Positions 1,541-58,203 of a DNA stretch of 64,000 nt are shown piece by piece (position 1 is the first letter of the stretch; each line of letters opens with the position of its first letter). The position numbers were made by a program, and so were the translations under genes. The notes below the pieces were generated by a model. The model ran no database searches, was not told the DNA's origin, and worked only from the letters and a program-made list of their open reading frames with translations. This DNA comes from Apostichopus japonicus (taxonomy: Eukaryota; Echinodermata; Holothuroidea; Aspidochirotida; Stichopodidae), in assembly GCF_037975245.1 (NCBI RefSeq), contig NC_092571.1:27542564-27606563 (forward strand), in the 5' to 3' direction.

Positions 1541-1878
1541 GTCTCTCGTGGTCCGTTTTACCCAAAAAAGCAATGACAACGATATAGGGAAAGAAAGAAA
1601 AGAAGTCATATACCCATGACGAGAGTCGAACTCGCGCCTCGCCGCAAGCGACGTATCCTAACCAATTAGACCACATGGGCTACTTGTGAATCAGTGATGA
1701 TTTTAGGAATATTATACACTTAAATAAGACATCTATTTCACAATTTTTTGTCAGAAAATGTTGTTTAAATGCTTTCTTGACCATCAACTTTTCAGAAATC
1801 GAAATCTTTCATCACAAATGATTGTTTAATTAGAAGATTTCCTTCATGTTTTTAGAGAAATATTTGTACTGATTGAAT
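1541..1878. repeat. Direct repeat copy 2 containing a tRNA-like sequence
   Basis: Nearly identical to 1-338 with a handful of substitutions. Similarity stops after the tactgattgaa motif, where the two copies continue with unrelated sequence. It follows directly after the LINE fragment. Confidence 0.85.
1611..1680 (-). tRNA. tRNA-like sequence, probable pseudogene (copy 2)
   Basis: Identical over the tRNA-like region to the copy at 71-140, with the same acceptor pairing, T arm and one-base variable region. That this 70-base core is unchanged while the flanks carry substitutions could reflect recent duplication or weak constraint. The short variable region still argues against a functional tRNA. 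Confidence 0.5.
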
Positions 1879-3825: not shown

Positions 3826-3829
3826 ATGT

Positions 3830-3842
3830 ATAGATATATATA

Positions 3843-3940
<98 letters not shown>

Positions 3941-3950
3941 CATATATATT
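3830..3950. repeat. (TA)n microsatellite
   Basis: About 120 bases of nearly pure TA dinucleotide with a few tacatacata interruptions. It marks the edge of the block duplicated at 33.2-36.5 kb, whose copy is also bounded by a TA microsatellite (32790-33235). Open frames of alternating Tyr and Ile across it are artefacts. Confidence 0.95.
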
Positions 3951-4604
3951 ACCACATGTATCAAAATTACATGATCATGTTTGCAATAATGCCAGAAATT
4001 GTATTAATTTGTTTCTTTTTTATCAATCCTCAAGTCATTATTCTATTCTCTTAATGTGTCATTTCTCTGGCTGCTAGCGTCGACAGTGCGTGGTGATTCG
4101 CAATTGCATAGTTTCAACAAATGAGACCAACGAAAAGGAAATTAATTGGTTGTCGTCTTGTGCGCCTAACTCCCATTCTGTGCGTTGAAGTCAGTGTTAA
4201 TTGGCTCTGGGTTTTACAATAGGTTATATAAAATGAAGGAAATACCATGTAGTTCAAATTGCGCCTGTTGGGGTAGCACACCCACCCCCTGTGTCCTCCA
4301 CTCCGCTAACCAGGCGTGGTGGTGTGCTAACAAACAGACTATTGTTCCAAAGTTCCCAGACTACTGTACATGTAAATACAAATGCCGCAATGGAGGGATG
4401 GATATATTCAGACTATTTCCACCAATGTGTATCACGTTACATGATACAACAGAATGCCGTCTGTCATTAACTGTTTTTGAATTATCACGGTAATTTGATG
4501 ATAAAGTACTAAATACTGTATTTAACACAATAATAAAAAAAAAAAAATAATGAATCAAAACCAAAACGTAATATATGAATATAAGTTTATAACATAAAGA
4601 ATAA

Positions 4605-5845
4605 TCATTTAACAATATCATACTGTTCATATTCTTGTAAAGGTTCGCAGGGAGACAGATAACCACCACTGTCATAAGTAAATAAAGATGAATTGATGTT
4701 CGTATAGTTATCTGTGGGTAGATTTAATGCATTACTATTATCAATCTGAGATTCAATCGGTGGGACTATGTCATCATTCATGGATGTATTTCTATCATTA
4801 GCATTATTCGTACTAGGGTTCTCTCCGGCGGAAACATTTAAGCGATATTTACATACTATAATTACAATGAGACATATTAAACAGAAGCTGATGACCACGA
4901 CAACTAATAAAACAGCTATTACTCGACCTGGATTATTGGTTGCACTGATTTGGATCGTCGTTGTGATATTTCTATTTCTGTAGTTACCAACACATGGTAT
5001 ATTCACTGGGCAAACGTCCCTTCCGGTATCCGTAACATACAGTTGAATGTATGTATCGCCTTAACTAATATAATATTTCCAATGACTAGGGATGTTAGTC
5101 CAGGTTAGGTTAACTTCACTCACATTACTGGTACAAATAAAAATATGATTCTTCACATTACTGCAAATGATATCTGATGGAGCCACCGCAACAGAGAACA
5201 ATTGGAGAAGTAGTATAGGTCTTAAGGAGCATGATCCTTGATAACTTTGATTATAAGGAGCTGGTAATTGTTGAGAGACATTATTGTTAAATGATGAGTT
5301 GAAGTACGATGAGAATGATAGAGTCTTGGAGGAATGCGGGTGAGAGGATGTTGTCTTGGTTGAGATGCTAGTGACATCTGTGGTTTTAATTCCCTGTATG
5401 ATATGGTTTGACATAGTCACGTGTGGAATTCCTTCCTCTGAAGTACAGTTCATCTCGACAAGGTCAATCTGATCCTCGAAAGTATATGGGCCGATTTCAA
5501 TGGAAGATTTACAAATAGGTTTACTGCTTATTAATGTGTAGACATTGCTAATCACAGCATATTTCTCATTACCAACTTCACCACATCTATATGTTCCTTT
5601 ATATTCTTCAGTTGCATGTTTTAATGTCAGGTTGCCCGTAGTGAGACCAATCTTATGTTAAATGGATTGTTAGCACTCTGTTCACAAATAAATTCAACTG
5701 TTTCATTCTTCAGAACGTTGATAGGGTCAGGAATAGGAGCAAATTTTGTAGTCATACGCCGAGGAAAGGAAGGTTCCAAACATGTTGTTATAACCGCACA
5801 CGATAAAAGTGTCGATAAAATATTCTCAAGTCTCATTGAATCCAT
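4605..5845 (-). pseudogene. Ig-like type I receptor pseudogene, subfamily 1
   Basis: This is a broken copy of the intact gene at 33910-35238. The start (MDSMRL) and signal peptide, parts of all three Ig-like domains, the membrane helix and the tail ending EYEQYDIVK are all recognisable. Three lesions separate it from the intact copy. A 73-base deletion at about 5648 in domain 1 shifts the frame. A 15-base deletion at about 5280 in domain 2 removes SVFVC, including the domain's second cysteine. A TAA stop lies at 5061-5063 in domain 3, after WKYYIS. The part after the stop stays open to the normal end. Domain 3 here resembles subfamily 2 (GDTYI), not its closest relative. A good splice acceptor (tttctattttag) lies about 45 bases upstream of the ATG on the minus strand. 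Confidence 0.9.
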
Positions 5846-5955
5846 ATTGGTCTTCAGCCGTGTGATGATACTTACAATTAAGGCTATGTACCTAAAATAG
5901 AAAGGACAAAAATAATAAGAGCTTTTTAATGTCTCAAATTGAATAGATATCTTCA

Positions 5956-6334
5956 ATGTATGTATGTATGTATGTATGTATGTATGTATGTATGTATGTA
6001 TGTATGTATGTATGTATGTATGTATGTATGTATGTATGTATGTATGTATGTATGTATGTATGTATGTATGTATGTATGTATGTATGTATGTATGTATGTA
6101 TGTATGTATGTATGTATGTATGTATGTATGTATGTATGTATGTATGTATGTATGTATGTATGTATGTATGTATGTATGTATGTATGTATGTATGTATGTA
6201 TGTATGTATGTATGTATGTATGTATGTATGTATGTATGTATGTATGTATGTATGTATGTATGTATGTATGTATGTATGTATGTATGTATGTATGTATGTG
6301 TGTATGTATGTATGTATGTGTGTATGTATGTGTG
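5956..6334. repeat. (TATG)n microsatellite, about 95 units
   Basis: Essentially pure tetranucleotide repeat with a few G substitutions at the right end. The flanks atatcttcaatgtatg and tatgcattattcgcata also occur at the duplicate locus (35385-35425), where only about three units are present. Open frames of MYVC repeats across it are not genes. Confidence 0.98.
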
Positions 6335-7432
6335 TTATGCATTATTCGCATATCGATGGAATTTAAATATGCAGGAGTAGGAGAAGCCGGTTGAAAGTTG
6401 TGTTAGGGGTGGGACAAAAGTCGATTTGAGTTGTAGAAGTTACCTTGGCACTATTTCAGTTTTGCACAAACTGCGATGACCTAGACGATAAATTGGGAAT
6501 TTCAACTTTTCCTATCCACATCTCGAATATACCTGTTCTTGGAATTAATTTATCTTGTCCTTTTTCCCTGAGTAACTGCCTCCTCTTGAAGTAGCAATTC
6601 TCCTACCAACAATTAGTATTATCTCAGACAAGATTAGAAGTATATCATCTCAAACTTCGATTGGCATTATTTTTTTGCATAAAATTTAATAATTTTTGTA
6701 AAAAGACGAAAGTTCTACGAACATTTAAAATTCTCGAATAATCGCCCCAAACTACTATTTGCTATTTCAGTTCCACTTTTTCTCAACTGATGATATTTTT
6801 TAACTCTAATTTTGGACATTTATCTCAATATTTCTACTACTTCGTTCGGAATTTCTATTTGTAGAAATTAAGGTATTTCATTCACAAACTGTCGACGTAT
6901 TACTCATATTTTACATTTTTTATTAAACATCCAACTTTCTTTAAAATGCTTCACTATTCAATGTAAAAACTGAGAATGTTTACTTCCTCAAAGTCTTGAA
7001 ATGTTTCTTATGATTACAATTGGATTATTGCAATTAGTTACTTGTTTTTGTATGCCGTAATTTCGACTGTTTAATTTTTCGATATTTTGAGCAAAAAAAT
7101 GGTGAATGATGCTATATGCTGATATTAGAATGCAATGTGCCTCTTGTTCTGTTCTTATAAAATTGGGAAGAATGGGAAATGTCGAGAAAGCAACTCCTGC
7201 CTTTACTCTGATCAGTGCTAGCTCCCCTGCACCTAGTCCCTAAGCCTATACTATGTGATGCTATACTATCTGATGTGGCGTAGCGCTACATTATTGCTTC
7301 AAAGTGAAGCTAGCTTATAAGGCTTTTACAAAATTTCAACGAATAACTGATGCCCGTAAAACTAGATTCCTTAATACTTTCCTCATAGCTTGTTTAACAG
7401 TTATAGTAACATTAAGTGGACTTACCGACGTA

Positions 7433-11040: not shown

Positions 11041-11227
11041 TTGTACTTGCATTGCTCAATTAGTTTCAGGAAATGCTTTTCACGATAAAATAATCGAAAC
11101 TGAACATTGACATACTTTAAACGAGTTCTGTATCCGCAGAAAGCCTGCGTGTAATGAGAATATATAGGTTGCTCTGTGATTTACTTTCCTTTAAAAGATG
11201 ACTTCAGACAAACTGTTAGACATGACA

Positions 11228-11252
11228 CACTCTTAAAACGTTGGGCAAAAAT
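11228..11252 (+). repeat. T1 left terminal inverted repeat
   Basis: Starts CACTCTTAAAACGTTGGGCA and pairs with 21404-21428 with two mismatches. It is preceded by the target-duplication dinucleotide CA at 11226-11227. Subterminal TTGGGTA and CCAAC motifs continue to about 11380. Confidence 0.88.
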
Positions 11253-11253
11253 T

Positions 11254-12787
11254 TGTTGGGTAGAGATGTTTTAAGAAAATGTTGGTTAATTCTTTAACCA
11301 TTATGGGTAAAATGATGTTGGAAACATTTATCCAACGTTTATCCTGTACATATACGAGTCCATTTGCCCAACGTCTGGGCAATGTTCCCGCCAAAATATT
11401 GTCGTACAATTCGCACTGCAATGTGATCATTGCTTACGTACATCCGTATACTAACTACGCTGGAGTACCAGCGAAGGCATGTTGCGCGCTGCGACGTGAT
11501 AACAGCACACTTTTACTAGATACGGTACATACGATCGAATTGCAATAGAATGTTCTTGAGTATATTCATGAGTATATTTTGAATTATGTCTTTCTCGTCG
11601 CCGGTTGATGATGGTGATGTGTTGACACTTTAACGAAGTTGAGGTGTAGAAGACTTGAAGGAATCATTTGAAGGTATAGTATAATGTATTTATACCCCCC
11701 CCCAAACGGATTGGCTTGTATTACTTGGCCTAGCCTAACGTTAGGCTGTGTCTGTCTACAGACTTGGCAATTTCCAAACGTTAGGTCAACAGTATATATT
11801 GTGTTCGTAGCCCAGACTACCCCGTGCGTAGGCTAGGCCTAACTCTGCTGCACAAGATGGAGCGCGCTTTGCGTGTACGTTAGGCTACGGAGGTAAAAAG
11901 TTATGCTTGTGTTTGGCGTGGGATAAGTAATGTTGATGAAACTTGACCAGTCCTAGTCTCACATTTGTCAGTTTTCTGAACAAAGTTAAGAAAACTATTA
12001 AGAGGTCACTAAGGATAGGCCTAACTTAGTCCACTTCATACTAGCTTGCAGAAAATTGTTTTGGAAAACTTAGTTTGAGTGTCATATATTACTTACTATT
12101 ACAAATATAGTTGTGTCATATATTACAAATATAACTTAAATAAATGCTAGTATTGCCTGGGCCATATTGATCACATTTGTATAAATTAAATAGTTTCTCG
12201 TCCTAACTGTTCAGAAAAAGTGAGGGTGCAGGCAATTAACCTACAGAGAGTGCGACCAGAAGGGGAATTTCTGTGGTAAAAATTTGGGTAAATTGGTTGT
12301 TCAAATTTGAAAAATAAAAAAGGGAAGGGAAATTGACCCAGTGGGCAAAAGGATGCAGGCAGGACAAGAAACTACTTATTTATACCTCGCCTTAGTATTA
12401 CGAATTTTGATTTTTATTGGGGCTCACAATATTCATAAATTTATGATTTAAGTGTAAATCCTACGTCTGCAAAATTTTCACAAAATGGTACAGTAAGCGT
12501 ATCTGTAGTCCCGAGACTATGTGATAAGAAAGACAAGATTTTGACATGTAAAAATATGTCTCCTCATTCTATCATTTTCTTTTTCAGGTATAAATGAATT
12601 GAGTGATAAAACTTAAAGGGGCCTATGCTAAGGCTAGGCGTATGCCAAAAAAAATCACTACTTGATGAAGGTGCAACAATTTTTTTTAATGAATTCTCCC
12701 CTCCCTTATTGCTTTTTGGCACTGTTTTGATTTTGAAACTTTATGCTATTTTCTTTAAATGCTAGTTTTTTGTTGTTGTTATTTCAG
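11254..12787. other. T1 interior, left part: no coding signal
   Basis: Subterminal motifs to about 11380, then non-coding sequence. The first exon or promoter of the internal gene may lie around 11580-11700 or 12560-12600, but no start is identifiable. The segment ends in a good splice acceptor (ttgttgttatttcag) at 12787. Confidence 0.4.
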
Positions 12788-12884
12788 AGAATGAGATAGA
12801 CAATGCTGCATTGTCCTTGTTGGATGAAGGTACTATAAAGGAGCTCATACCAAAGATTGGCACCATGATGACAGTTTTGAAGGG

Positions 12885-13379
12885 TTGGTGACAGAAGGTA
12901 CTTTAAAGAAACTAAATGGGATATACATTTTCAAGTGTCTCAGGGTTGTAGATGGCAACATTAGGACTTCTTTCTTTCACTTGAAACATGCCCATGGCAT
13001 TAATGCTCAACATAGGTCAAATATTATTTGTAGTCAGGAAAACTGTAAATTAAAATTTGGAACATGCTGTGGTTACAAAAGGCATCTGCTCACAAAACAT
13101 AGTTTGCCATCTGAACTAACAGTAAATGAAAACAATGTTCAAAATGAACTTGAACAATTGGAAGAAACTGAGAGTGGTGATGATGCATATTCATGCGGTG
13201 ACATAGAAGATAGAGATCTTGAAATTGACCAAAGTAATGACCCTGCTGCAATTTTCATTGAGAGATTGAAAGCCTCAAATATACCATCATCACTTGTACA
13301 GACCATTATTTGTGACACAAAAGTATTGATAGGCAATTTTGTTGATGATGTGGAGAAACATATATCAGACATTTTATAG
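12885..13379 (+). CDS. C2H2 finger and acidic-linker exon of the T1 gene (partial)
   Basis: An open frame of 164 codons whose first codon is TTG, so it begins inside an exon rather than at a true start. Residues about 49-70 form one zinc finger with spacing C-x4-C-x12-H-x4-H (CSQENCKLKFGTCCGYKRH followed by LLTKH). An acidic stretch (EQLEETESGDDAYSCGDIED) follows, then a helical segment (PAAIFIERLKASNIPSSLV). The C-terminal EKHISDIL ends in a stop right where the LINE begins, so the natural continuation was probably displaced to beyond 17232. The SAM-like segment upstream is in another frame, so an indel or unseen intron separates them. Confidence 0.6.
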   Translation: MVTEGTLKKLNGIYIFKCLRVVDGNIRTSFFHLKHAHGINAQHRSNIICSQENCKLKFGTCCGYKRHLLTKHSLPSELTVNENNVQNELEQLEETESGDDAYSCGDIEDRDLEIDQSNDPAAIFIERLKASNIPSSLVQTIICDTKVLIGNFVDDVEKHISDIL

Positions 13380-13401
13380 TGATGAATGTTCTTACCTAAA
13401 A

Positions 13402-14031
13402 ATGTTCTTACCTAAAAACTGCCCAAAGTACATATGCCGAATTTGTAATACCCAGGGTCATAGAGAAGCAAGTTGCCCTTCTGTGGTATGCTTTAACTGT
13501 CAGGGACTCGGGCATAAGAGCTTTAATTGTCCGGAAAGAACAGAAGTAGGCGACGAATACAATAGCGATGAGACCGATGAACAAGTCAATCCCAAGACAA
13601 CCGCAGACAGATCTGAGCACACAATAGAGCATGACCAGGCTAATACAGATCTTAACAGAATGGACCCGCCCCAAAACATCCAACAAAAGACATCCTCAAT
13701 GGAACACAGCCGAGCAAACACAGACAAACAACAGGAACCAAAGACTGGTAAGAAAACTTGGCAAAAGGAACAAAAGGCAGCCACACCGACACAAAGAATA
13801 CCAGGAAGCAGGCAAAATGCAGAGGTTTCAGTCACTAATCAAACCAACAAGACAACAGAAAATCCACAACCCCCAAAAAGGCAAATGTCATCATGTGATG
13901 CAGAGCAGTTCATGACGGTCAAATACAAGAAGAAAACGCTAATCCCAAACCTGAGTAGAGCGAGGAATTTCAAACCAGGTGAGACCAAGGTGACACCAAG
14001 GGCTAATCCAACTGGAACTTTGCAGAAATGA
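13402..14031 (+). CDS. LINE ORF1: nucleic-acid-binding protein with two zinc knuckles
   Basis: The start at 13402 (MFLPKNCPKYICR) is preferred because the frame upstream runs into the interrupted host exon. Two CCHC knuckles follow closely at about residues 12-25 and 31-44: CRICNTQGHREASC and CFNCQGLGHKSFNC, both C-x2-C-x4-H-x4-C. The remainder is hydrophilic, rich in Gln, Thr and Lys, with a basic C-terminus. In this LINE class ORF1 binds element RNA and helps assemble the retrotransposition particle. At 209 codons it is short for ORF1, and no RRM or coiled coil is visible, which suits an N-terminal truncation. Its TGA stop overlaps the ATG of ORF2 (ATGA), a layout allowing reinitiation. Confidence 0.8.
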   Translation: MFLPKNCPKYICRICNTQGHREASCPSVVCFNCQGLGHKSFNCPERTEVGDEYNSDETDEQVNPKTTADRSEHTIEHDQANTDLNRMDPPQNIQQKTSSMEHSRANTDKQQEPKTGKKTWQKEQKAATPTQRIPGSRQNAEVSVTNQTNKTTENPQPPKRQMSSCDAEQFMTVKYKKKTLIPNLSRARNFKPGETKVTPRANPTGTLQK

Positions 14032-17000
14032 ACCTCATAACAAATATATTCATTTTGATGGCGTTACCAGTTACTACTGCGAAAGCTGACCGGAGAAAAA
14101 GTACCCCGAACGAACCGGAACATACTGATAAATTCAATGCTGTTATTTTAATTGAGCACAATATCTCATGTATGCATTACGACATTACATCATTTAATAA
14201 TCTCCCTAGACATGATGATTTATCTATTTTTCATCACAATAGTCGTAGTTTGAATCAAAATTTTAATGATATTACAACTTTTCTCTCTCTACTCAGAGAT
14301 GATTTCTCAATTATCGGATTTTCTGAAACTTGGCTAAATGACAGTATCTCACCTCTGATAAGCATTAATAATTTCACGTTAATAGAACAACATCGCAGCG
14401 ACCGAAGAGGAGGCGGGGTATGTTTATTTGTTCATAATACCCTGAGTTTCAAACATAGACCGGACCTGTCGATATTCAATCCGACGATTGAATCTATATT
14501 TGTTGAGATAACAACACCTAGTAGTAAAGAGAAATGTATTATTGGCGTAATCTATAGACCACCAAGTGGTTCGATAGATGATTTTAATGTTCATTTACAA
14601 TGTATTCTTAACGTCATAACGAATACCAAATTTAAATCCTATATCATGGGAGACTATAATATCGATCTAACCAACAAACACATATCCGCTAGTTTCTTAA
14701 ACACTATTTACGCATATGGATTCACACCAACAATTAGCAAGCCCACCCGTATTAGTAGTACTTCGGCCACATTAATTGATAATATCATCACCAATGTTAC
14801 CTCTACCATTACATCAGGAATTCTGACTACTGATCTAAGTGATCATTTACCCATTTTTATCAAAGTTCCCGCAAGAAAATATATACCAAAGAGCCCTATT
14901 CACGCTAGAAATTGTAATACCAATAATATAAGACGATTTGTATCAAGCATCAAAGAAAACAATTGGGACGATGTCCTCGATAAACATGACGTCAATGTTG
15001 CTTATGATATATTTTACAATATTGTAGATTCAACTTATAATGATTGCTTTCCATACCGTAAAATAACTAAAAGAGGTAAAAAGAAACATCCTTGGATCAC
15101 AAAGGGTATACTAACCTCTATTCAAAGGAAAAATAAATTGTTCAAACGTTACATTAAGAATTCGACAGAAAGTTATAAGACTTCTTATAATACCTATCGT
15201 AATAAGCTTAATCATGTTATTAGATTCTCTAAGAGATTATATTTTAATAACAAGTTTTATGATGCTAGAAATAATTCGAAGAATACCTGGAATATCATTA
15301 ATGAAATTCTTCATAATGACCGCAAAAAATCAACATATCCTGCTTCTTTCAAAAATGGCGATCAAGAGATTACCAATGACATCGATATTGCAAACGACTT
15401 CAATAACTTCTTTATCAATCTTGGTCCTTCATTGGCAGACAAGATTACGAGCAAAGGGACGCATAACGAGTTTATGCATAAAACTAGTCACAACAATTCG
15501 ATTTTTACATTTCCTGTATGTGAGGAGGAACTCCTTAACGTTGCGACTGCTTGTCTAAAACCTAATAAAGCAGCAGGATATGATGATTTTAAGCCAGGTA
15601 TCATTAAACACATTATTCCTTTAATTACTAAGCCTTTGACTCATATTTGTAACTTATCTTTTAATACTGGAACATTTCCAGATTCGTTGAAAATTGCAAA
15701 GGTTATTCCGATTTTTAAAAAGGGCGAAGCAGATTTATACGAAAATTATAGACCCATTTCATTGCTTTCATGTTTCTCGAAAATCATTGAAAGACTTATG
15801 TTTAATCGAATTTTTAATTTTCTTAACAAATATGACATTCTATGCAACCAACAATATGGCTTTCGACCACATCATTCTACTGAACTTGCACTGGCAGATG
15901 CCGTTGACAAATTGTACAGCAGTCTTGATAATAATAGATCTTGCTTGGGTGTGTTCCTAGATCTTTCCAAAGCATTCGACACTATTGATCATACCATTCT
16001 ACTTAGTAAATTACAACATTATGGCATCAGAGGAACAACGCTGAACTGGATCGATAGTTATATATCTAATCGGTATCAATATATCTCTTACAAAAACACT
16101 CATTCTCATCTTGCAGAAATTCAATGTGGTGTTCCACAAGGCTCAATTCTAGGCCCTTTACTGTTTATTATATATGTCAATGACATCTGCCACGTATCAG
16201 AAATCGCAAACATTACGTTATTTGCCGACGACACAAATATTTTTTTCGAATCAAATGAAAATGAAAATTTATTTCATATTAAAGTGTCTTCTGAATTGAA
16301 TAAATTTAACGACTGGTTTGCCTCTAATAAGCTATCGCTTAACATTGGTAAAACGAATTATATCGTTTTTAATACATCCCGAAATTTTAGCTGGGATAAA
16401 GATATTTTTATGGGAGGTAAAATTCTCAAAGAGGTATTTTCTAATAAATTCTTAGGTGTACATATTGATCATAAACTTTCATGGGGTGATCATATTTCCA
16501 TAGTATGCAAGAAAGTTGCAAAGAATATAGGAATATTATCGAAATTGAAACACTACCTGCCACAACACATATTAAAGACACTTTATCAAACTTTAGTGGT
16601 CCCACATTTTTCTTATTGCTCGATAATTTGGTCTGGTACACGTGATACTAATCTTAAGCCACTTATTATATTACAAAAGAAAGCTGTCCGCCACATATCA
16701 CATGCTGCACCACGTGATCACACCAACCTTCTATTCAAGGATCTGAATGTATTGAAAATTAATGACATAATACGTGTAAATCTTGCCACCTTCACTTATA
16801 AGGCTTGGAATGGACTCCTACCTAATGCATTTCATAATTATTTAATCAGTAATTCGGATATACATCACCACAACACAAGACATGCAAATCATGCGCATTA
16901 TCACAACACGAATACCTCAACAGGAATGTTAAGCCTCAGAAATCGAGCAATAAAAACCTGGAATTCTATTACTGACATTATTAAAAATAAATTATCGTGT

Positions 17001-17048
17001 AGGACATTTAGAAAATGTTATATTAAAGAAATAATTGCATCATATTAA
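14028..17048 (+). CDS. LINE ORF2: APE endonuclease and reverse transcriptase
   Basis: A 1006-residue open frame without stops or shifts. An apurinic-type endonuclease occupies roughly residues 60-280: HHNSRSL, FSETWLND, IGVIYRPPSGS, MGDYNIDL, TLIDNIITN and LSDHLPIFI in the expected order. Reverse transcriptase follows at roughly 500-780: NKAAGYDDFKPGI, YENYRPISLLSCFSKIIE, QYGFRPHHST, LDLSKAFDTIDH, CGVPQGSILGPLLF, and the catalytic FADD at about residue 730. A C-terminal region typical of CR1/jockey LINEs follows (PHFSYCSIIWSG, LQKKAVRHI, TRHANHAH). It would nick target DNA and prime cDNA synthesis there. All visible catalytic landmarks are kept, so the copy is recent and may be competent. Its ATG overlaps the ORF1 stop. 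Confidence 0.95.
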   Translation: MNLITNIFILMALPVTTAKADRRKSTPNEPEHTDKFNAVILIEHNISCMHYDITSFNNLPRHDDLSIFHHNSRSLNQNFNDITTFLSLLRDDFSIIGFSETWLNDSISPLISINNFTLIEQHRSDRRGGGVCLFVHNTLSFKHRPDLSIFNPTIESIFVEITTPSSKEKCIIGVIYRPPSGSIDDFNVHLQCILNVITNTKFKSYIMGDYNIDLTNKHISASFLNTIYAYGFTPTISKPTRISSTSATLIDNIITNVTSTITSGILTTDLSDHLPIFIKVPARKYIPKSPIHARNCNTNNIRRFVSSIKENNWDDVLDKHDVNVAYDIFYNIVDSTYNDCFPYRKITKRGKKKHPWITKGILTSIQRKNKLFKRYIKNSTESYKTSYNTYRNKLNHVIRFSKRLYFNNKFYDARNNSKNTWNIINEILHNDRKKSTYPASFKNGDQEITNDIDIANDFNNFFINLGPSLADKITSKGTHNEFMHKTSHNNSIFTFPVCEEELLNVATACLKPNKAAGYDDFKPGIIKHIIPLITKPLTHICNLSFNTGTFPDSLKIAKVIPIFKKGEADLYENYRPISLLSCFSKIIERLMFNRIFNFLNKYDILCNQQYGFRPHHSTELALADAVDKLYSSLDNNRSCLGVFLDLSKAFDTIDHTILLSKLQHYGIRGTTLNWIDSYISNRYQYISYKNTHSHLAEIQCGVPQGSILGPLLFIIYVNDICHVSEIANITLFADDTNIFFESNENENLFHIKVSSELNKFNDWFASNKLSLNIGKTNYIVFNTSRNFSWDKDIFMGGKILKEVFSNKFLGVHIDHKLSWGDHISIVCKKVAKNIGILSKLKHYLPQHILKTLYQTLVVPHFSYCSIIWSGTRDTNLKPLIILQKKAVRHISHAAPRDHTNLLFKDLNVLKINDIIRVNLATFTYKAWNGLLPNAFHNYLISNSDIHHHNTRHANHAHYHNTNTSTGMLSLRNRAIKTWNSITDIIKNKLSCRTFRKCYIKEIIASY

Positions 17049-17196
17049 TTAAAATATCATATAATTGATTTATTGTCGAAACGCTTAATTTGATCTTTAA
17101 TTTTTTCTTCTCTTTTCTTTCTTCAGGGAGTCTTCTACATTGTTAAGCTATTGTATGCTTTATAGAAGACTTCCTTTCACCTTGTATATTTGCACG

Positions 17197-17232
17197 TGAA
17201 AAACAAAATAAATCAAATCAAATCAAATCAAA
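17197..17232 (+). repeat. LINE 3' pentamer tail
   Basis: Four or more AATCA/TCAAA units end the LINE after a short 3' untranslated region of about 150 bases. Such short tandem tails are typical of LINEs that prime on their own 3' repeat. It is followed by gagagtaaataaccc, which belongs to T1. Confidence 0.85.
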
Positions 17233-17556
17233 GAGAGTAAATAACCCATTTTATGTGCCAAGGAATTACAAAATTCTAGGTTTTATATTTAAATTTGGCC
17301 TCATACCCATTACAGGTACTGTGCTCCAATTTATGTACATGCAATGCTCTTTTGAGAAATGTTACATGTTCTTACGTAAAACACACCAACTGGAACAGGG
17401 AAAAGGCGATAAGTAACAGGGAAACTTATTTTAGCACTCCAAAACTGGATGAAAAGCTGTGGATGGCATTATTAAACCTTTGTTGAGAAAAATTACTCCA
17501 TAAAACTTAAGTACCCACCCACAAACACTGGTAATGTGATATGCTCTAATTCACAG

Positions 17557-17672
17557 ATCAAAAGAAGAACCTTGCATTCTTCATGCTACCAATAATACTA
17601 CAAGGTGTGAAGGGTAAAAGGGGCCATAGCTCGGCACAGCAATCCATGAAAAGCTTCATCACTGTTCAGCCG
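17557..17672 (+). pseudogene. Candidate exon of the T1 gene (KSFITVQP segment)
   Basis: Bounded by acceptor ttcacag and donor gtaagt. The exon is open in one frame, encoding GVKGKRGHSSAQQSMKSFI and ending VQP at a codon boundary. The next exon begins in the same phase with EDVDIEEYAKDYR, so the splice would join cleanly. Confidence 0.5.
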
Positions 17673-18957
17673 GTAAGTAGTTTATTCAAAAAGGTAAAAT
17701 TTGTTGGAATCATGCATGAATTAATGGATTTTGTGATCTTAATTTGGAATTGCTTCATGATCTGATTCCCATTGCAAATTAGGTATATATAATTTGACAG
17801 AGATCATGTAGTCAACTAGTAATAAACTTTATGTTATTTGTGTTTCACTTTCATGACCAACTTTTAAGAAACTTCTTTCACTTTCATGACCAACTTTTAA
17901 GAAACTTCTCCAGTTAGATGGTCTAAAAATTGTACACATCATCCTTTTTTGAGAGGGGAATAAACAGACAACAATTAATCATAGTTTCTCAACCCTGGGG
18001 TCATTGAGAACTATTTTCCTGGGTGTGGGGGGGGGGTCTGTGAGGGCAGATTGGTTAGCCAGGGTTGCCAGCCATCCTGGAAAATGGGAGCAGAACCTTG
18101 AAAATTAGTTTCCCTTTTTCCAGTCAGGGAAAGTTAGGGAATTTGAGAAAAATGCTTCAGAAATCAGGGAAAAGCTAGGGAATTTGATTGGCCCAAGAGA
18201 GCAGTCAGTCTCATATATTGGCTGTCCAAACAGTGCGAAGACATATCACACTAGAAATAGGTTGAACTAATCATCAGGGAATATTGAAAATTCATCAGGG
18301 AACTTTGTTGTCATGAAATGCTGGGAAACCTTCCCCTCCCACCCCCACCAAAAATTTATCATGTCCCACGCTCACCTACTGTATATAAGCTACATAATGG
18401 GGAAAAAAACGAGTGGTCAAAGCCAGCCAGGAGGCGGGGGCTCAATTTCCAATCCCAGCCGTGTCTGACCAAAACTGTTAGGCATGTTGATGTCTCGCTT
18501 GACCTTCACTGCAGAGTCTAAGTATTTGGTTGAGGAAAAACTAGTAAGATTACTGTAATGTATGAATGTTCAAAGTTGCTACATGAAATTAATACTAAAA
18601 TGGCATCATGACCAAAAGTTTATTCTGAATCTGTTTAAAGTTGCAAGGTCACTTATTTTATGAATGTGAATTTATGGCTATTATGAGAGAAAATATCTCA
18701 TGCTTCATGTGACGGAAATTCCACGTTCACATAATTTGTCTTCTCTGGAATCTGGTCAGAGATGATGTTAGCTGTGTGTGCTCAGCAGTTACATTCTTTC
18801 TTGTCCTGTCTAACTAAGGCTAGTACTACTTAGTAAAAAGGTGTCACGGTCATATTCTGCATTGCATTTTCTTTGATTTGAAATGTCCCTGTCACAGATA
18901 GGAATAAATTACAGTCACAATCAAAAATAAATGGTATCTCTTCTTTCATACCTGTAG
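17673..18957. other. Intron-like T1 interior with a degenerate repeat
   Basis: Non-coding. Bases about 17995-18320 hold several 'cagggaaa.t.agggaattt' segments and G runs, typical of a dispersed non-autonomous repeat, but no clear ends. A 45-base direct duplication lies at about 17846-17910 (tttcactttcatgaccaac twice). Confidence 0.4.
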
Positions 18958-19124
18958 GAGGATGTTGACATAGAAGAATACGCAAAGGACTATCGATGTG
19001 GACATGACGCCACAGCCCTTGAAGTGCAGAGGCACCCACCTAACACCATCCCAGGCCTATGTTATTCTCGAGAGACATGCTCTGCCACAACCATCCCTAC
19101 TGACAGAAATAGGTGTTTGCTTTA
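18958..19124 (+). pseudogene. Candidate C-terminal exon of the T1 gene, frameshifted
   Basis: Follows acceptor cctgtag. It opens with EDVDIEEYAKDYR. A one-base shift near 18997 moves the frame to MTPQPLKCRGTHLTPSQAYV, then ILERHALPQPSLL and CFK. This ILERHALPQPSLL block is the most family-diagnostic part of the gene. The frame ends at about 19168. Confidence 0.55.
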
Positions 19125-19129
19125 AAGGG

Positions 19130-21050
19130 TGTGAAGACTCGCGCAAAGAGAAACGTCTAATGCCGGTAATCTGACCTAGTTTCGAATGAGGTGTAACAGA
19201 AGTGTTAGGCACCACCATCGATCCCAGAAAATACACACAAAATTTGCTACCGTCGGTAATTAGACACTAGTATACAGTCAGTACATACAGCTGCGGTCAT
19301 TACCCACAGCAGTGTATAATCGATACAGCGATGGACATCTCAGGTCCAGCTAAAGATAAAAACGTATCACGTTTTATTACTGTACTGCCTGCATTATGTA
19401 GCGACACAAACAAAACGTCACTTGCAAGCAACAGAAAGTTAACTTTTTCAGATGGTTGCACACGGTTTGGGGCGAGTCTTCAATGCATAAGGCTGTGTAT
19501 ATTTTCGATAGTGAATTCCAGCGACATTGCAAGCTGACATGGAAGTTTCTTCCAACCTTCATATACGAATTCTTGGACGCAAACATTTCAAGCAGCATCA
19601 GAGATCTTATGGTATTTATTTCTTCCAAGCAATGACTTTTCAGTGTACTGGATAGTTTAATCTGTTTGTTACAGTTTTTCTTCAAACAAAAAGTTATGAC
19701 TTACTTCTTGGATCCGAACCTTGCTGCTATTACTCATTTCATTGGTTCAATAATTAAGTTGGTTTTTGTAACTTAAAATTCTTTTACTTCTTTGCATGTT
19801 ATCATTTTTCATAAACATGCACTGACTGTATATGTCTTTATGTGAAACTTTACTTAAATATGACTTGAAATGTTTGTATACGTTTGCTTATAAAATTCAT
19901 CTTATCATTTTTTTCGATAACATGTACACATTGATGTTGTTTGATCCTACTTATGACAGAGTTGAGGGTCTTTTTTAAGACAAATGTACAGATCTGACTA
20001 TTCTTGAGAAGGGAAGCAGGCAATCAAAAATTTACACTTTAACTACTAGGGCTAGATTTCAAACAGTTTTGTGATTGTCATGCTTTTTCATGCTGTATGC
20101 AATGTTTAACATTAAAATAAGTTTTATAAAGAGAACTGGTTAGGGATTCATATTTGATATGTGTGAAAATTCCTAGGTGCCTGTGAAATATACAATATTT
20201 GATATGTTTACTATGTGCATTGGCTTGAAGAACTAGGTAAACCTGCACCATCATTGACCTTTCCTTTTATTTTCTGTAAATTTCATATCATTATACTTAC
20301 AAATTGTGCTCAAATTCCAACAATTGAGACATTAAAGACATATGAGAGGTTTGTATGTGTGATACCATGTGTGTTCCATTCAAGTCAGTTTGCATTGTAT
20401 AGGTAATATGTTTAAAAATGACGAATATGTGTAGCTGCACAAGACTGCTTATGTTGGAATTTAGCCATTGATATATCATAAATAGTCCTCCTTTTAAACA
20501 TTGAGCCATATTTGTTTTCCACTACTAGTTATATCTATATAATTATTATGATATAATTATGAGGACTTGCCATTTCCTGTTGAACTTCTTGCTTCTGTGC
20601 TCAAATTTCTTAGCACGTAATGGAGTGTCTAGTGAAAACAATCACCTATAACTGCAAAAAAGGCTCAGCTGTAAACAACACTTGTTACAAATTGGTCAGT
20701 GGGCAAGAACCAAACAACGTTGTGCATGTTAAGGTTAATTTTATCCATGAAGAGAATAGATTGTAGTTTAATGATCAACTTGTATGTCAATATTCATGTT
20801 CCAAGTCCTAAAGCAAATTTGCAAAGCATACATTGATACATTTTCATGATGAACATATTGACACAATATGATATAAAGTAAGTTAATAGATTACTGCAAC
20901 CAACAATACCATGTTGCTAAATTCTGTGAAACCATTTTATGTGTTTTTAGTTCTAGTGAAGCTTTTTGAAGCTGTTTTCATAAATAAAATGAGAATTTAA
21001 TACTATTTTATGTGTTAATATTTTTAAACCCTAGTGTACATTTCATTTCA
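19130..21050. other. T1 interior, right part: nothing recognised
   Basis: AT-rich, with no sustained frame and no transposase motif. The 60-100 codon frames here have no recognisable domain. Confidence 0.45.
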
Positions 21051-21054
21051 TTCA

Positions 21055-21403
21055 TTCATCGACCAATGTTGGGTAACAAATTGCCCAATTTAACTGTATC
21101 AATCAACCAACATTGGGTAAAATCACTCAAATATAATTAGATTCATTAACCAATATTGGGTATCAAATTACCCAACTAATTGTAACAATCAACCAACATT
21201 GAGTAAAACAATCCAATACAATTTCATTCATTAACCAATCTTGGGCAAAAAATTGACCAACTAACTTTATGGATTAACCAATAATGGGTAAAATAATTTA
21301 CCCAACTACGTGGTAAATGCATTACCCAACTGCTGTTGGGCAAACTTTGCCCATTTTTTGAGCGGTTACATATGTACCCAGTGTTGGTTAAAAGTTGGTC
21401 AAT
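21055..21403. repeat. T1 subterminal repeat array
   Basis: At least six loosely repeated units of about 60 bases, each with attaaccaa(t/c)(a/c)ttgggta on one arm and ttacccaact on the other. The left end of T1 has sparser versions. In CACTA-type and some hAT elements such arrays bind the transposase, so they support element status. Confidence 0.75.
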
Positions 21404-21428
21404 ATTTTTACCCAACTTTTTAAGAGTG
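21404..21428 (-). repeat. T1 right terminal inverted repeat
   Basis: Ends aactttttaagagtg, the complement of the left end with two mismatches in 25. It is followed by the duplicated CA (21429-21430) and then by tgtcatag, the continuation of the interrupted site. Confidence 0.88.
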
Positions 21429-22918
21429 CATGTCATAGGTCATGGGATAGCTACTTCTGTGTTGAGAACTTGAGAGTATTCATTATCCAGGGACAATCTC
21501 AACACCCGATGCACAAATTTCGTTATTAGCATAATCGGAACAGGGAAGAGTTGAACAAAGAAGAGATTGATGATCACCTTACTTTATACAGTGGATATAC
21601 TTATTGTTATCATAATCGTAAATTAAAATCATGCGAGGATTGAAAATCAAGTCTTGACTCATGTACTACTGTTAATAAATGCACAAATTATTGGAGATAT
21701 TATATATAGCGATCATGTTTGTGATGGCGAAAGTAAACTACATTGTACGCCGTGTATAAAAGTATACATACTCTAAGTTATCCACATGTCAACTAAACAC
21801 TCCCATTGTCGAGATTTTCTTTCGATTTAATTTTGCAACAAACGACAGGGTCACTTCACAGTATTACCTGATTAGGTGTTCAACGCTCATTAGTGTGTAA
21901 AGCTTATTATCTGATGTTAGCAGGAACTTGCTTTTCCATGACAAAAGAAAAACGACGCTGTGTTAATCTATATCGCACTACATGTACCACGTCATATCAG
22001 TGTAAAGTGTATTACATGATTTCCCTTCACGTACTGTGTAACAAAGCCAGAATGTTATTAAATACTATAGATATTGTTCTATTTATGTGTAGTAGCCAAG
22101 TCATATATTGCAATTCATTACTATATACTATGTATCATTCGTGGTAGTGTTCCCAACAAATGTGACCTAAGGGAAATAATTCGTTGTCGTCATGTGCGCC
22201 TATCAGTCAGTTGTGAGACTGTGGGTCTTACAAAAGGTCATTTAAAATGGAGGGAAAACGTCATGTAGTTGAATCAGCTACACACTGGCTCTCCTCACCG
22301 AGCATGATGTCGCTAACAAACGGACTATAGTACCCAGAGTTAATCACAGCAATGGTCACTCCCGCAGTATAAATTGCAGATATGTTAATCTAATACCTTT
22401 CAGGGCAACTCGTCCACATATTGAATTTAGGAATGCTACGGCTTCAATTCCCATTTTATTCCTATCTCGGATAAACTTTCCCCTTTTCTAAAATAGGTTA
22501 CATAAATTTCTTTATTAAAGTATGCAATGCAGAGACACCGACAGACAGTCTTCCCTCGTACACAACAATTGATTAATTTTGGAACCAAACGCTTTGTTAA
22601 ACATTATGTTATCTCAGTTTAAGGGCGCTCGAATCATCATGATGTATTAATAGGTAATATTATATCGACAGACGTCCGTTCAGCTTCCTTAACACAAATA
22701 CTGCATTGAAGGGACGGGTGTATTCAGACTACCACCAAAAGTAACATATTCAATAATGTATGATACATAACAATAACTTCAGTGATTGACTGTTTTGGGG
22801 TGTAACGGTAACTTGAAAAATAGTAATATGAGTACAGTACTCATAAAAATTATTTATAAAATAACTGTAAAAAAAACTAAATAAAAGATGAAGAAATGTT
22901 TTTAAGAGAAAAGGATAC
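21429..22918. other. Duplicated 3' flank of Ig-receptor gene (subfamily 2)
   Basis: Collinear with 48095-49553 and 57013-58203 and more distantly with 43440-44690. Shared landmarks include caatctcaaca, cgttattagcat, gttgaacaaagaagagat, and cccttcacgtac. It is probably 3' untranslated and intergenic sequence of the duplicated module. No gene is seen. Confidence 0.7.
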
Positions 22919-45136: not shown

Positions 45137-45138
45137 TG

Positions 45139-47120: not shown

Positions 47121-47139
47121 ACTTATATCAAAAGATACA

Positions 47140-49553
47140 GAAACAGAAGGTGTGTCAAAGACGAAATGAAAAAGAATAAATAGGATCTATCATACAAACC
47201 CTATCATGTGTGGCTCATAGATGGCAAATACTTAAAGTCTTTAGCTGTAATGACTAAAGGAAGGTAATTTAATGCATTTCATCTGAATCGTCACGTTCAA
47301 GAGCGGATTAAATTAATTACTTATATTTCCTCGTATTTTACACTTGTTATATTACAAAAAATGTGAGATTCTTGGAACGTCGGAGACATTTCCAGGTGGC
47401 GACCGTGCGGAATTATGGAACTATTAAACTGGTGATGTTTAATCGACTGACGGAATCATGATACCACATGCAACATTTGCATTTCGAGTTTACTCACGTT
47501 TTTCTATTGACTGAGGTGTTTACGTATCGTTCATATTAGCAAAAGAGGTTTCAGTAAATGCAGTCTTGTCAATATGTTAAGGAAGATGTTAAAACGAAGA
47601 GAAAAAATAGAAAGCTTGATTTCAGTGAATCTTTCTCCATAGTTTAGTTTTGTTTAATTCAATGCATCATAGACTCCGTGCTCGTATGAATTTTTAGTAG
47701 CTTTTTGATCCTCAAATCAAGTTTTCAACTTCAATCTTGGCCTTGCTCTAAATGACGAGTTGACAATAATGTACATTATTTACTTGACATAAACTTTCTT
47801 TCAGTTTAAACTTCCTGGTAAAAATGTCCTTCAGTTTTCGTGTTTATTTTTAAATTTGAAACGACTCAAGCAAACACTTCACAGAATGGTCTGGGCAAGA
47901 GTTGTACTTGCTTTAATGTAGCATTGCTAAATTAGTTTCAGGAAACGCTTTTCACGATAAAATAATCGAAACTGAAAATTTACATACTTTAAAGGCCTAC
48001 GTGTAATCAGAACATAATAGTTGTTGTTGTTGCTATGTGATTTACTTTCCACGAAAAGATGACATCAGACAAACTGTTAGACATGACATGTCATAGTTCA
48101 TGGAATAACTATTTCTGTGTTGAGAGTATTCATCATTCAGGGATAATCTCAACAACCAATGCACAAATTTTGTTATTAGCATAATCGGAACAGGGAGGAG
48201 TTGAACAAAGAAGAGATTAATGATCACCTTACTTTATACAGTGGATATACTTATTTCTATCATAAACGTTAAGAAAAATCATGCGAGGATTGGAAATCAA
48301 GTCTTGACTCATGTACTACTGTTAATAAATGCACAAATTATTGGAGATATTATATATAGCGATCATGTTTGTGATGGCGAGAGTAAACTACATTAGTACG
48401 TCGAGTATAAAAGCATGCATACCCTAAGTTATCCACATGTCATCTAAACACTCCCATTGTCGAGATTTTCTTTCGATTTAATTTTGCAACAAACGACAGG
48501 GTCGCTTCACAGTATTACCTGATTAGGTGTTCAACGCTCATTAGTGTGTAAAGCTTATTATCTGATGTTAGCAGGAAATGCTTTTCCATGACAAAAAAAA
48601 AACGACGATGTGTTAATCTATATCGCACTACATGTACCAACGTCATATCAGTTGTAAAGTGTATTACATGATTTCCCTACACGTACTGTGTAACAAAGCC
48701 AGCATGTTAATATATATATACTATCAATAATATTCTATTTGTTTGTAGCAGCCAAGTCATATATTGCAATTCATTACTATATACTATGTATCATTCGTGG
48801 TAGTGTTCCCAACAAATGTGACCAAGGGGAATTAATTCGTTGTCGTCATGTGCGCTAATCAGTCAATTTTGAGACTGTGGGTCTTACAAAAGGTCATTTA
48901 AAATGGAGGAAAACGTCATGTAGTTGAATCAGCTACACACTGGCTTTCCGCACGGAGCATGATGGCGCTAACAAACGGACAATAGTACCCAGAGTTAATC
49001 CCAGCAATGGTCACTCCCGCAGTATAAATTGCAGATATGTTAATCTAATACCTTTCAGGGCAACTCGTTCACATATTGAATTTAAGTATAGGAATGCTAC
49101 GGCTTCCATTCCAATTTTATTCCTATCATGGATAAACTTTCCCCTTTTCTAAAATAGGTTACATAAATTTCTTTATTAAAGTATGCAATGCAGAGACACC
49201 GACAGACAGTCTTCCCGCGTACACACCAATTGATTAATTTTGGAACCAAACGCTTTGTTAAACATTATGTTACATCAGTTTAAGGGCTCTCGAATCATAA
49301 TGCTGAATTTATAAGTAATATTATATCGATTGACGCCCGTTTCAGCTTCCTTAACATAAATACTGCATAGAAGGGACGGATGTATTCAGACTCATACCAC
49401 CAAAGTGACATGGTTTTTAATGATATATGATACAAAAGTATACCTTCAGTGATTGACTGTTTTCGAGTGTAACATCACAATTACACAAAAGCACCGTAGC
49501 GAATAAAATGCAAACATTAAATATGAAGAATTGTTTTTGAGAGTAAAGAATAT
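47140..49553. other. Duplicated 3' flank of the 49554-50837 gene
   Basis: Collinear with 10100-11227 joined to 21429-22918, and with 55750-58203. Contains one flank-repeat unit (47590-47900) and the uninserted T1 target at 48076-48095. No gene is seen. Confidence 0.75.
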
Positions 49554-55440: not shown

Positions 55441-58203
55441 TATTTTTATGACAATTCGGTCAATATGCACCAGGCTACTGAAAGAAAAATAAATTGCAAT
55501 GTGTCTTTTAATGGCTAATCTTATATCATTATTTTCATGATTATTGTAACGACTTGCCCAAAAATGATAACCAATATGGAAGGGTAATAACACGGCAAAT
55601 GATTGTATGTAATTGGCATGCGATGTAATAACCGATGCATGTCTACATGATATTCACATTAACACGTTGTACGCGCGCCGAGCGTATTTCAATATGGTAA
55701 TATTTTTGGGTTAAGTCGTTACAGCCCCCAAATCAAATTGGGCTCCTATATGTGGCGACCGTGCGGAATTATGGAACTATTAAACTGGTGATGTTAAATC
55801 GACTGACGGAATCATGATACCACATGCAACATTTTCATTTCGAGTTAACCCACGTTATTCTATTGGCTGAGGTGTTTACGTATCGTTTCATACTCTAGCA
55901 AAAGACGATTTAGTCTTGTCAAATATGTTAAAACGAAGAGAACAAAAACAAAGCTAAGTGCAAATATGTATTATTGAATGCAATATAAACTTTAGTAGCG
56001 TTTGATCTCAAAAGTTTTCGACTCCAGTCTTGGCCTCGCTCTAAATGCAGAGTTGACAATAATATTCATTATTGACTTGACATGACATTTCTTTCAGTTC
56101 AAACTTCCTGCTCAAAATGTCAGTCTTTCAGTTTTAATGTTTATTTTACAATTTTTCACGACCCAAGCAAACACTACAAATAATGGTCTGAGCAAGAGTT
56201 GTACTATAGAGAGCAAATAGAAAGCTTGATTACAGTGAATCTTTCTCCATAGTTTAGTTTTGTCTAATTCAATGCATCATACACTTATTGCGAATATGAA
56301 TTATCGAACGCATTAAGTTTAGTAGCGTTTGATCTCAAAAATTTTCAACTTCAATCTTAGCCTCGCTCTAAATGCAGAGTTGACAATAATGTACATTATT
56401 GACTTGACATGACATTTCTTTCAGTTCAAACTTCCTGCTCAAAATGTCAGTCTTTCAGTTTTAATGTTTATTTTACAATTTAGTGCAAATAGAAAGCTTG
56501 ATTACAGTGAATCTGTCTCCATAGTTTAGATTTGTCTAAATCAATGCATCATACACTTAGTGCAAACATGAATTATAGAACGCATTATATATTTTAGTAG
56601 CGTTTGATCTCAAAACGTTTTCAACTACAATCTTAGCTTCGCTCTAAAATGCAGAGTTGACAATAATGAAGACATTTTTTACTTATATATGACATGACAG
56701 GGACTTATACATGACATGACATTTCTTTTAGTTCAAACTTCCTGATCAAAATGTGTTTCAGTTTTAATGTTTATTTTACTGTTAATTTGTCACGAATCAA
56801 GCAAACGCTTCAAGAAATGGTCTGGGCAAGAGTTGTACCTGCATTGCTCAATTAGTTCAGGAAATGCTTTTCACGATAAAATAATCGAAACTGAAAATTT
56901 ACATACTTTAAGCGCGTTCTGTATCCTCATAAAGCCTACGTGTAATGAGAACATATGTTGCTCTATGATTTACTTTCCATTAAAAGATGACTACAGACAG
57001 ACTACATGACATGTCATAGTTCATGGAATAACTATTTCTGTGTTGAGGACTTGAGAGTATTCATCATCCAGGGACAATCTCAACAACAAATTTCGTTATT
57101 AGCATATTAATCAGAAAAGGGAGAAGTTGAACAAAGAAGATATTAATGATCACCTTACTTTATACAGTGGATATACTTATTTTTTATCATCAACGTAAAT
57201 TAATATCATGCATACATGCAAAAAACGACGCAGTGTTCATCTATATTGCAACACATGTACCACGTCATATCAGTGTAAAGTATATTACATGATTTCCCTT
57301 CACGTACTGTGTAACAAAGTCAGTACGTTAACATATAATATAGATAATACTTTATTTGTGTGTAGTAGCCAAGTCATATATTGCAATTCATTACTATATA
57401 ATATATACTATGTATCATTCAGTATGACAGTCGGCCGTGCAAGGTAGTTCGCATTTGCTTAGTCCCAACAAATGCGACCAAGGGGAGATTAATTCGTTGT
57501 CGTCATGTGCGTCAATCAGTCATTCTGTGTGTGGAGGTCAGTTGTGAGACTATGGGGTCTTACAATAGGTCACTTAAAATGGAGGGAAAACGTCATGTAG
57601 TAGAATTATGCCACACAGGCTCTCCTCACCGAGCATGGTGGCGCTAACAAACGGACTAATGACCAGAGTTAATCACAGCATTGGTCACTCCCTGCAGTAG
57701 AAATTGCAGATGTGTTATATGTTACCTTCAGGACAACTCGTCCACATATTAGAATTTAAGTATAGAAATGCAACTGATTCCATTCCAATTTTATGCCTCG
57801 ATTACAGTTTTCACTTTTTCTGTGTATAATAGGTGACATGAATTTCTTTAAAGTATGCACCAATGCTTTGTTAAACACATGTTACCTTAGTTTAAGTGCG
57901 CTCGAATCGTTTGCTGTATTTATACATATTATACTATTGTAAAACGCCCGTTTAGCTTCCTAACACAAATATCGCGTTGAAGGAACGGATGTATTCTGAC
58001 TTATACCACCAAAGTGGAATGTATTTTGAGTTGATGATAAATGATACAAACGTACACCTTCAGCAATTGACTTCTGGGTTAACGATAACTTGACAAATAG
58101 TACTATGAGTACAGTATTCCTAATAATTACACACAGACAAAATATGTAACGAATCAAATACAAACATTAAAGATGAAGAATTGTTTTTGAGAGTAAATAA
58201 TAC
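55441..58203. other. Duplicated 3' flank of the 58204-59505 gene
   Basis: Collinear with 47398-49553 (gcgaccgtgcggaattatgg onward). The flank repeat is present three times here, and an uninserted T1-like target lies at 57003-57018. No gene is seen. Confidence 0.7.
55970..56860. repeat. Three tandem copies of the ~300-base flank repeat
   Basis: Units begin near 55970, 56215 and 56480. Each has agcgtttgatctcaaaa and gcagagttgacaataat followed by acttcctg(a/c)tcaaaatgt. Copy number differs between modules: one, two and three. Confidence 0.75.

Follow-up and report, generated by a model that had tools for sequence, protein, structure and literature searches.

A probable non-autonomous CACTA-type transposon in the sea cucumber Apostichopus japonicus, and its relatives carrying a transposase and a SAM-domain gene

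The window analysed here is a 64,000-nucleotide stretch of contig NC_092571.1 from Apostichopus japonicus (positions 27,542,564 to 27,606,563; G000:C11:27542564-27606563 in the genome searched, which comprises 671.6 Mb in 35 contigs). It holds an element, T1, which is bounded by terminal inverted repeats (TIRs) and interrupts a module that is found uninterrupted at two other places in the window. At the level of the clade, and by way of the transposases of its relatives, T1 can be assigned with high confidence to the non-autonomous CACTA-type (CMC clade) elements. Its defining features are as follows.

11228..21428, plus strand: T1, putative non-autonomous CACTA-type TIR transposon, 10,201 bp with its nested long interspersed element (LINE) counted in; defined by empty sites, ends and dispersed copies
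11226..11227, no strand: target site duplication CA, left, by comparison with the empty sites
21429..21430, no strand: target site duplication CA, right, by the same comparison
11228..11256, plus strand: left TIR, beginning CACTCTTAAAACGTTGGGCAAA; the first 17 bases recur genome-wide
21400..21428, minus strand: right TIR, minus-strand reading CACTCTTAAAAAGTTGGGTAAA; pairs with the left end
48087..48088, no strand: empty paralogous site 1, single CA; 48087-49473 is 91.8% identical to 21429-22806
57010..57011, no strand: empty paralogous site 2, single CA; 57010-57211 is 86.7% identical to 21429-21634
21051..21428, no strand: right subterminal array, TTGGGYAA-like words in both orientations and an 85-bp tandem unit (tandem repeat 21051-21294)

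The two ends of T1 are inverted repeats with 89% identity over about 28 bp, reading CACTCTTAAAAC at 11228 and TTTTAAGAGTG at 21428 with a CA outside each, and CACTCTTAAAA occurs once per strand in the window, at 11228 (plus) and at 21418-21428 (minus). T1 is flanked by GACATGACA on the left and CATGTCATAG on the right; the uninterrupted paralogues read GACATGACATGTCATAG in the 48-kb module and ACATGACATGTCATAG in the 57-kb module, where the CA stands at 48087 and 57010, respectively. Comparison of the flanks with these uninterrupted modules shows the CA duplication to be exact. An earlier note on this DNA had proposed the boundaries, the CACTCTTAAAA termini, the 2-bp CA duplication and the two empty paralogous sites, and all of them are correct to the base. 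The subterminal motif arrays that it described are also real: the terminal 400 bp of T1 hold 10 TTGGGY/RCCCAA words on the right and 3 on the left, compared with 0.17 per 400 bp for the T1 interior and 0.19 for the rest of the window, so the right array is dense and the left one sparser. T1 therefore has the subterminal repeat array by which CACTA/EnSpm elements are recognised.

In the genome, at least 21 matches were found for the left 472 bp of T1 and at least 42 for the right 678 bp, and the lowest 21 of the 42 right-end matches (97.8 bits or less) are short and 70–76% identical, except one 44-bp match at 91%. The TIR pattern CACTCTWAAAANNTTGG is present at 74 genome sites, compared with 2 for its reversed control. 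Stretches were taken for 17 left ends, and both ends are readable at 12 independent T1-type sites, namely T1 and its duplicate L009 taken as one site, L010–L018 (nine), a copy on C14 composed of L019 and L026, and L025; L020–L024, L027 and L028 are one readable end short in the stretches taken and were left out of the scoring. An exact 2-bp duplication exists at 11 of the 12 sites (TA at seven, CA at two and TG at two), and none of these 11 matched sites reaches the 3 bp of plant-type CACTA elements. Duplications of 2 bp were also read at the single A-type site and at all three B-type sites (TA in B-type) of the related elements described below. Apart from L020, whose left end is lost, the variants of the ends are point differences in the right ends of L018 (GAATG for GAGTG) and L025 and in the left end of L024. 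Searching the genome with the T1 ends, as the earlier note had suggested, thus revealed a dispersed family whose copies share their ends save for point differences.

The window contains many tandem and segmental duplicates, and the T1 locus itself is duplicated, flanks included, about 192 kb away at 99.0–99.3%, so its boundaries might be duplication or assembly breakpoints rather than transposon ends, an outcome that the earlier note had itself named as one that would speak against a transposon. However, ten more T1-type copies elsewhere in the genome share these ends and are each flanked by a matching 2-bp duplication of their own (L025 alone being mismatched), and the 74 sites of the TIR pattern stand against 2 in the control. 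On the strength of these independent copies the breakpoint reading was rejected, and we regard it as extremely improbable. The duplicate, L009, is found on this contig too and, leaving the LINE aside, aligns with both T1 and the flanks at 99.3% over 10 kb; since the flanks are shared, it is a segmental duplicate of the T1 locus and not a second insertion. It also provides the LINE-free T1 unit, which is 6,379 bp.

The T1-type copy on C14 (G000:C14:11826136-11842760) is split by a nested element of 10 kb that has a TTAA duplication, a 15-bp TIR (AGCAGCATTTTGCGT) and a P2RX7_C-domain protein, for which L020 represents the empty site. We take this TTAA-flanked element to be Kolobok-like. The 16.3-kb C14 copy was considered as a full autonomous T1 and rejected, as the extra 10 kb is the nested element.

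A large part of the interior of T1 is occupied by a retrotransposon (LTR, long terminal repeat; ORF, open reading frame).

~13403..17229, plus strand: nested non-LTR retrotransposon (LINE), 3.8 kb, apparently truncated at the 5' end and tailed by AAATC repeats at the 3' end; missing at T1 2175|6003 in L009, L010 and L015
13403..14031, plus strand: partial LINE ORF1 coding for CCHC zinc knuckles, open frame from 13333; PF00098 E 4.8e-6, over the cut-off, in two stretches
14007..17048, plus strand: LINE ORF2, 1,013 aa, reverse transcriptase; RVT_1 E 5e-36, 124.8 bits; the largest ORF in T1

By our own reading, which has no profile match behind it, the N-terminal part of ORF2 would hold an endonuclease. 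The reverse-transcriptase ORF being the largest in T1, the element might be taken for a retro-DNA hybrid in which the reverse transcriptase is integral to the TIR element. But L009, L010 and L015 read without interruption across the site, and none of the 17 T1-type copies compared contains the LINE stretch (T1 2176-6002; matches longer than 60 bp), which one match enters by 5 bases. Seven of the 17 (L009, L010, L014, L015, L018, L021 and L025) match to, or to within 30 bases of, both sides of the LINE, and the remaining 10 are deleted or unmatched around the site. The hybrid reading was rejected on these LINE-free copies and has hardly any probability left. The 10.2 kb given for T1 in the earlier note is thus correct as regards boundaries, but it is inflated by the LINE. 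Because the LINE is missing from L009 and the other copies, it probably arrived in T1 after the locus was duplicated. At its 5' junction a 16-bp target stretch is duplicated (window 13385-13418), and no ordinary target duplication was seen at the 3' junction; together the two junctions make an unusual integration end.

T1 also retains a piece of a transposase gene.

12828..13379, plus strand: ORF of 183 aa for the N-terminal zinc-finger part of a CACTA-type transposase, corresponding to residues 9-156 of 831; 43% identity, E 6e-30 at 12930-13367

The earlier note had found no recognisable transposase in T1. A zinc-finger N-terminus is in fact present (12930-13367), while the catalytic part is gone, as are the first zinc-finger Cys and the methionine where the protein of the relative A7 can start. 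T1 keeps about 148 of 831 residues, and so has no intact transposase of its own. Searched against the genome, the 183-aa ORF gave 67 matches, some of them in frames of 831–861 aa, and three relatives (frames of 831, 831 and 535 aa) have a T1-like right end about 9 kb away. One relative, A7, is an 11,958-bp element at C7:10993862-11005819 with ends CACTCTAAAAAAG and CTTTTTTAGAGTG, a TA duplication and an 831-aa ORF. A7 is flanked by T1-like ends, and it is colinear with the T1-type copies in the SAM exon, the transposase N-terminus and the accessory exons. Since T1 holds the transposase N-terminus only and this related 12-kb element holds the whole protein, T1 is most likely a non-autonomous deletion derivative. 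The earlier note had proposed to look for an intact shared ORF; the 831-aa transposase ORF of A7 is whole, and no intact autonomous member of T1's own sublineage was found.

With the A7 ORF as query, 61 match places were obtained (54 of 426 candidates scored), which correspond to at least 52 transposase loci. An open frame of at least 800 aa is listed at 33 of the 52, four of the 33 having a stop inside the match; C2:29245556, with 827 aa in one listing and 535 aa in the alignment, was left out of the 33. Eleven members, chosen for spread among the 52 loci, were aligned, and D301, D395, C415, C418, H480, H622, H626 and E646 are invariant among them (these residues were first seen in 14 sequences, some partial). 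The CMCT clade has the signature of a DDE triad, C(2)C and H(3-4)H motifs between the second D and the E, CA..TG termini and duplications of 2–5 bp (PMC12730594). We infer D301, D395 and E646 to be the catalytic residues from the way in which they are arranged around C(2)C and H(3)H; the T1 remnant ends before this region. C415/C418 and H622/H626 lie between the second D and the E, together with the invariant H480. The termini, CACTC..GAGTG, are of the 5'-CA..TG-3' form, with a 2-bp duplication at 15 of the 16 sites whose two ends were read; the fifth base of T1 is a C (CACTC), which differs from the plant-type CACTA terminus. The Transposase_21 profile (PF02992) matches 3 of the 11 relatives (best E 2e-5). 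In the whole genome this profile gave 20 matches, 15 of them over the cut-off of 28.6 bits, with the L038 locus below it at 27.5 bits, and no match was found in 14 control genomes. A search of solved structures with the transposase gave no match at E up to 10.

Two of the matches over the cut-off lie close to places discussed here. One, G000:C11:27647262 (minus strand), is about 41 kb beyond the window and has a 633-aa frame; the other, G000:C3:30889088 (minus strand), is near the T1-type copy in L027 and has an 822-aa frame with a stop inside the match.

Fifteen transposase loci were checked for T1-like ends. A T1-type left TIR is located 1.26–2.47 kb upstream at six of them (17 bases as in T1 in five, one base changed in the sixth), a right end 6.8–7.3 kb downstream at another three (A-type), and neither at the remaining six. 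Among 25 B-type accessory matches checked, a left end lies upstream in 22 and is lacking in 3. The spacing is 9.2–10.0 kb in 7 of 25, six of which are transposase loci (C8:14939323 is not), and 5.2–6.3 kb in 15 of 25 (mostly 5.2–5.4 kb, one at 6.3 kb). By their spacing, the 15 short-spaced loci are apparently an amplified, transposase-deleted family that keeps the end of the SAM gene. Examples are G000:C11:23451019, C5:17598407 and C16:28468128; in complete B elements the left end and the accessory C-terminus are 9.2–10.0 kb apart.

The second gene of these elements, the accessory gene, has left four remnants in T1.

12787..12900, plus strand: accessory exon 2 remnant, coding for the latter half of a SAM domain and containing an in-frame stop; aligns with the A7 exon at 58% identity, E 1.4e-11
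17550..17672, plus strand: accessory exon 8 remnant; aligns with the A7 exon at 50% identity, E 2e-10
18986..19126, plus strand: accessory C-terminal exon 9 remnant, first part; 58% identity, E 5e-15
19489..19626, plus strand: accessory C-terminal exon 9 remnant, second part; 57% identity, E 4e-15

Exon boundaries and numbers are predictions, read from the genomic sequence only. In A7 and B, exons 1 and 2 jointly make up a SAM domain, and the B-type protein scores 25.9 bits with the SAM_1 profile, over the cut-off of 23. A search of solved structures with the accessory N-terminus gave weak SAM-domain matches only (best E 0.024). The GT donor of exon 2 lies 13 (A7) or 23 (B) bases 5' of the transposase ATG, and the peptides of exons 3–5, beyond the transposase, match between A7 and B with E values from 5e-6 to 3e-13. 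As the donor precedes the ATG and matching exons follow on the other side, the transposase ORF is predicted to sit within an intron of a multi-exon SAM gene. When the 105-aa C-terminal exon of A7 was compared with the genome, the best 150 of 665 candidates were scored, and among the matches listed, 19 of the 52 transposase loci are followed on their own strand by the accessory C-terminus, 4.4–6.3 kb downstream. No other geometry of the two genes within 15 kb was seen at the 52 loci among these matches, and a uniform-chance estimate gives about 0.09 pairings where 19 were observed.

On the nested-gene parallel with maize tnpA/tnpD, we propose that the accessory SAM protein may be the partner that binds the subterminal repeats, an animal counterpart of plant TNPA, the whole basis being architecture and recurrence. 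We know of no SAM domain in TNPA. A wider version, which we put forward tentatively and consider rather unlikely as a whole, is that animal CACTA elements have a conserved TNPA counterpart, a SAM protein whose exons enclose the transposase ORF, which is alternatively spliced and which would polymerise along TTGGGYAA arrays to pair the ends. The accessory gene might instead be a passenger, a captured host gene without any role in transposition. SAM proteins are common host proteins, and the T1-type copies as well as 15 of 25 B-type accessory loci (by spacing) appear to have lost the transposase and kept accessory sequence, which could be hitch-hiking. However, the same C-terminal exon accompanies A-type transposases and transposases 33–52% identical to that of A7, in one fixed geometry, and the exons of A7 and B match on both sides of the transposase. 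A passenger is thus a serious possibility, although we hold it to be short of an even chance. The accessory protein may share its SAM N-terminus and similar C-terminal motifs with vertebrate SAMD3-like proteins, which we treat as a lead only. If this resemblance is true, the host family may derive from, or have seeded, the accessory gene. A literature search on the SAM/SAMD3 link gave nothing relevant among the matches listed, which are part of the total and no proof of absence from print.

From the above, our reading is that T1 is a deletion derivative of an animal CACTA/EnSpm-like (CMC) transposon that was presumably mobilised in trans and later hit by a LINE, and we give this a probability of about 0.9. 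Several results weigh against it. The flanks of L025 are unequal (TA versus AA), at one of the 12 T1-type sites. The closest full-length transposases found are only about 40–43% identical to the T1 remnant, so that no intact autonomous member of the T1 sublineage was found. One of the 11 aligned members, L044, has a single residue between the two Cs. The Transposase_21 profile does not match the A7 transposase at E values up to 10; only 2 of the 20 genomic matches of this profile are loci of the A7-related set, both below the cut-off, and none of the 15 over the cut-off is among the 52 loci. At 33 of the 52 transposase loci there is no accessory match among the best 150 of 665, and SAM_1 reaches 14.6 bits in A7, below the cut-off of 23. 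Finally, the subterminal words of B-type elements are TTGGTTAA, and those of T1 are TTGGGTAA.

The Transposase_21 results just given, the CACTC ends in place of CACTA, and the 2-bp duplications in place of the 3 bp of a soybean element (PMC2613891) could also mean a distinct superfamily outside CMC that is similar at the ends only. Against this stand the three presumed catalytic residues with the 2 C and 3 H that are invariant in 11 members, the Transposase_21 matches in 3 of the 11, and the animal CACTA elements with 2-bp duplications already described (PMC1636069), and we consider a separate superfamily quite unlikely. The earlier note had suggested a new or highly derived CMC-type lineage. 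The CMC type is supported by the relatives, with their CMC(T) residues and some Transposase_21 matches; novelty is not. T1 itself appears to be a defective deletion derivative, and 2-bp duplications in animal CACTA elements are in print (PMC1636069). A literature search with CACTCTTAAAA gave nothing related, judged by title.

Under the deletion-derivative reading, T1 has kept its cis parts, the short TIRs beginning CACTCTTAAAA and the subterminal arrays, dense on the right and sparser on the left, and has lost most of two genes, one for a zinc-finger DDE transposase and the other, the accessory gene, with several exons and a SAM domain at the N-terminus of its product. A relative's transposase may cut in trans at CACTC...GAGTG, and insertion would proceed by a 2-bp staggered cut, with TA preferred and CA or TG used sometimes. 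The accessory protein would come from transcripts alternatively spliced around the transposase ORF, and might bind the subterminal words as plant TNPA does. T1 would have entered one tandem module, the whole locus would then have been duplicated (about 192 kb apart), and the LINE would have entered the copy in the window last. T1 itself is an ordinary defective transposon, yet it leads to at least 52 animal CACTA-type transposase loci in one genome, as well as to elements whose ends are clean and in which a second gene recurs. A SAM gene in the tnpA position offers a specific candidate open to testing, and suggests that a nested two-protein plan may not be confined to plants.

Elsewhere in the window, module duplications pair 4029-7355 with 33350-36432 and 45137-50448 with 53251-59104, in pieces about 75–97% identical. 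Two equal tRNA matches (48 bits) lie at 71-140 and 1611-1680 (minus strand) in a 337-bp duplicate with 97% identity, and ARAGORN called no tRNA at either position. A 164-bp tandem array (61293-64000; 16.4 copies, 97% matches) runs to the end of the window; its unit contains the tRNA T-arm-like word GGTTCGAACCCC, and no tRNA or Rfam call was made in the array.

Compared with known systems, the relatives of T1 have the same DDE, C(2)C and H(3-4)H arrangement, CA..TG termini and duplication length within 2–5 bp as the CMCT clade (PMC12730594). ESTA is a fungal lineage with TA duplications; TA prevails in T1-type copies too, but CA and TG are used as well. In PMC1636069, SmTRC1 is an animal CACTA-related element with a Transposase_21 region, 2-bp duplications in 7 of 14 copies, and alternatively spliced, multi-exon transcripts, including shorter products without the transposase domain. 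Animal CACTA kinship, the Transposase_21 region (in some relatives here) and 2-bp duplications are common to both, whereas the three animal TRC TIRs in that source begin with CCC and those of T1 with CACTC. For the accessory proteins of SmTRC1, that source reports no similarity to other animal or fungal element sequences, whereas the SAM-domain gene here recurs across diverged families of one genome. In maize Spm/En, as described in PMC2613891, the transposase ORF lies in an intron of a second gene, whose product TNPA is the protein bound to the subterminal repeats, and the system requires the two proteins together. Subterminal repeats, a (here predicted) intronic transposase ORF, a multi-exon second gene and deletion derivatives moved in trans are thus shared with En/Spm (PMC2613891 and PMC1636069), while plant elements have CACTA ends and, in the soybean element of PMC2613891, a 3-bp duplication, compared with CACTC and 2 bp here. 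Like the deletion derivatives of plant Spm, T1 has kept its cis ends and lost its proteins.

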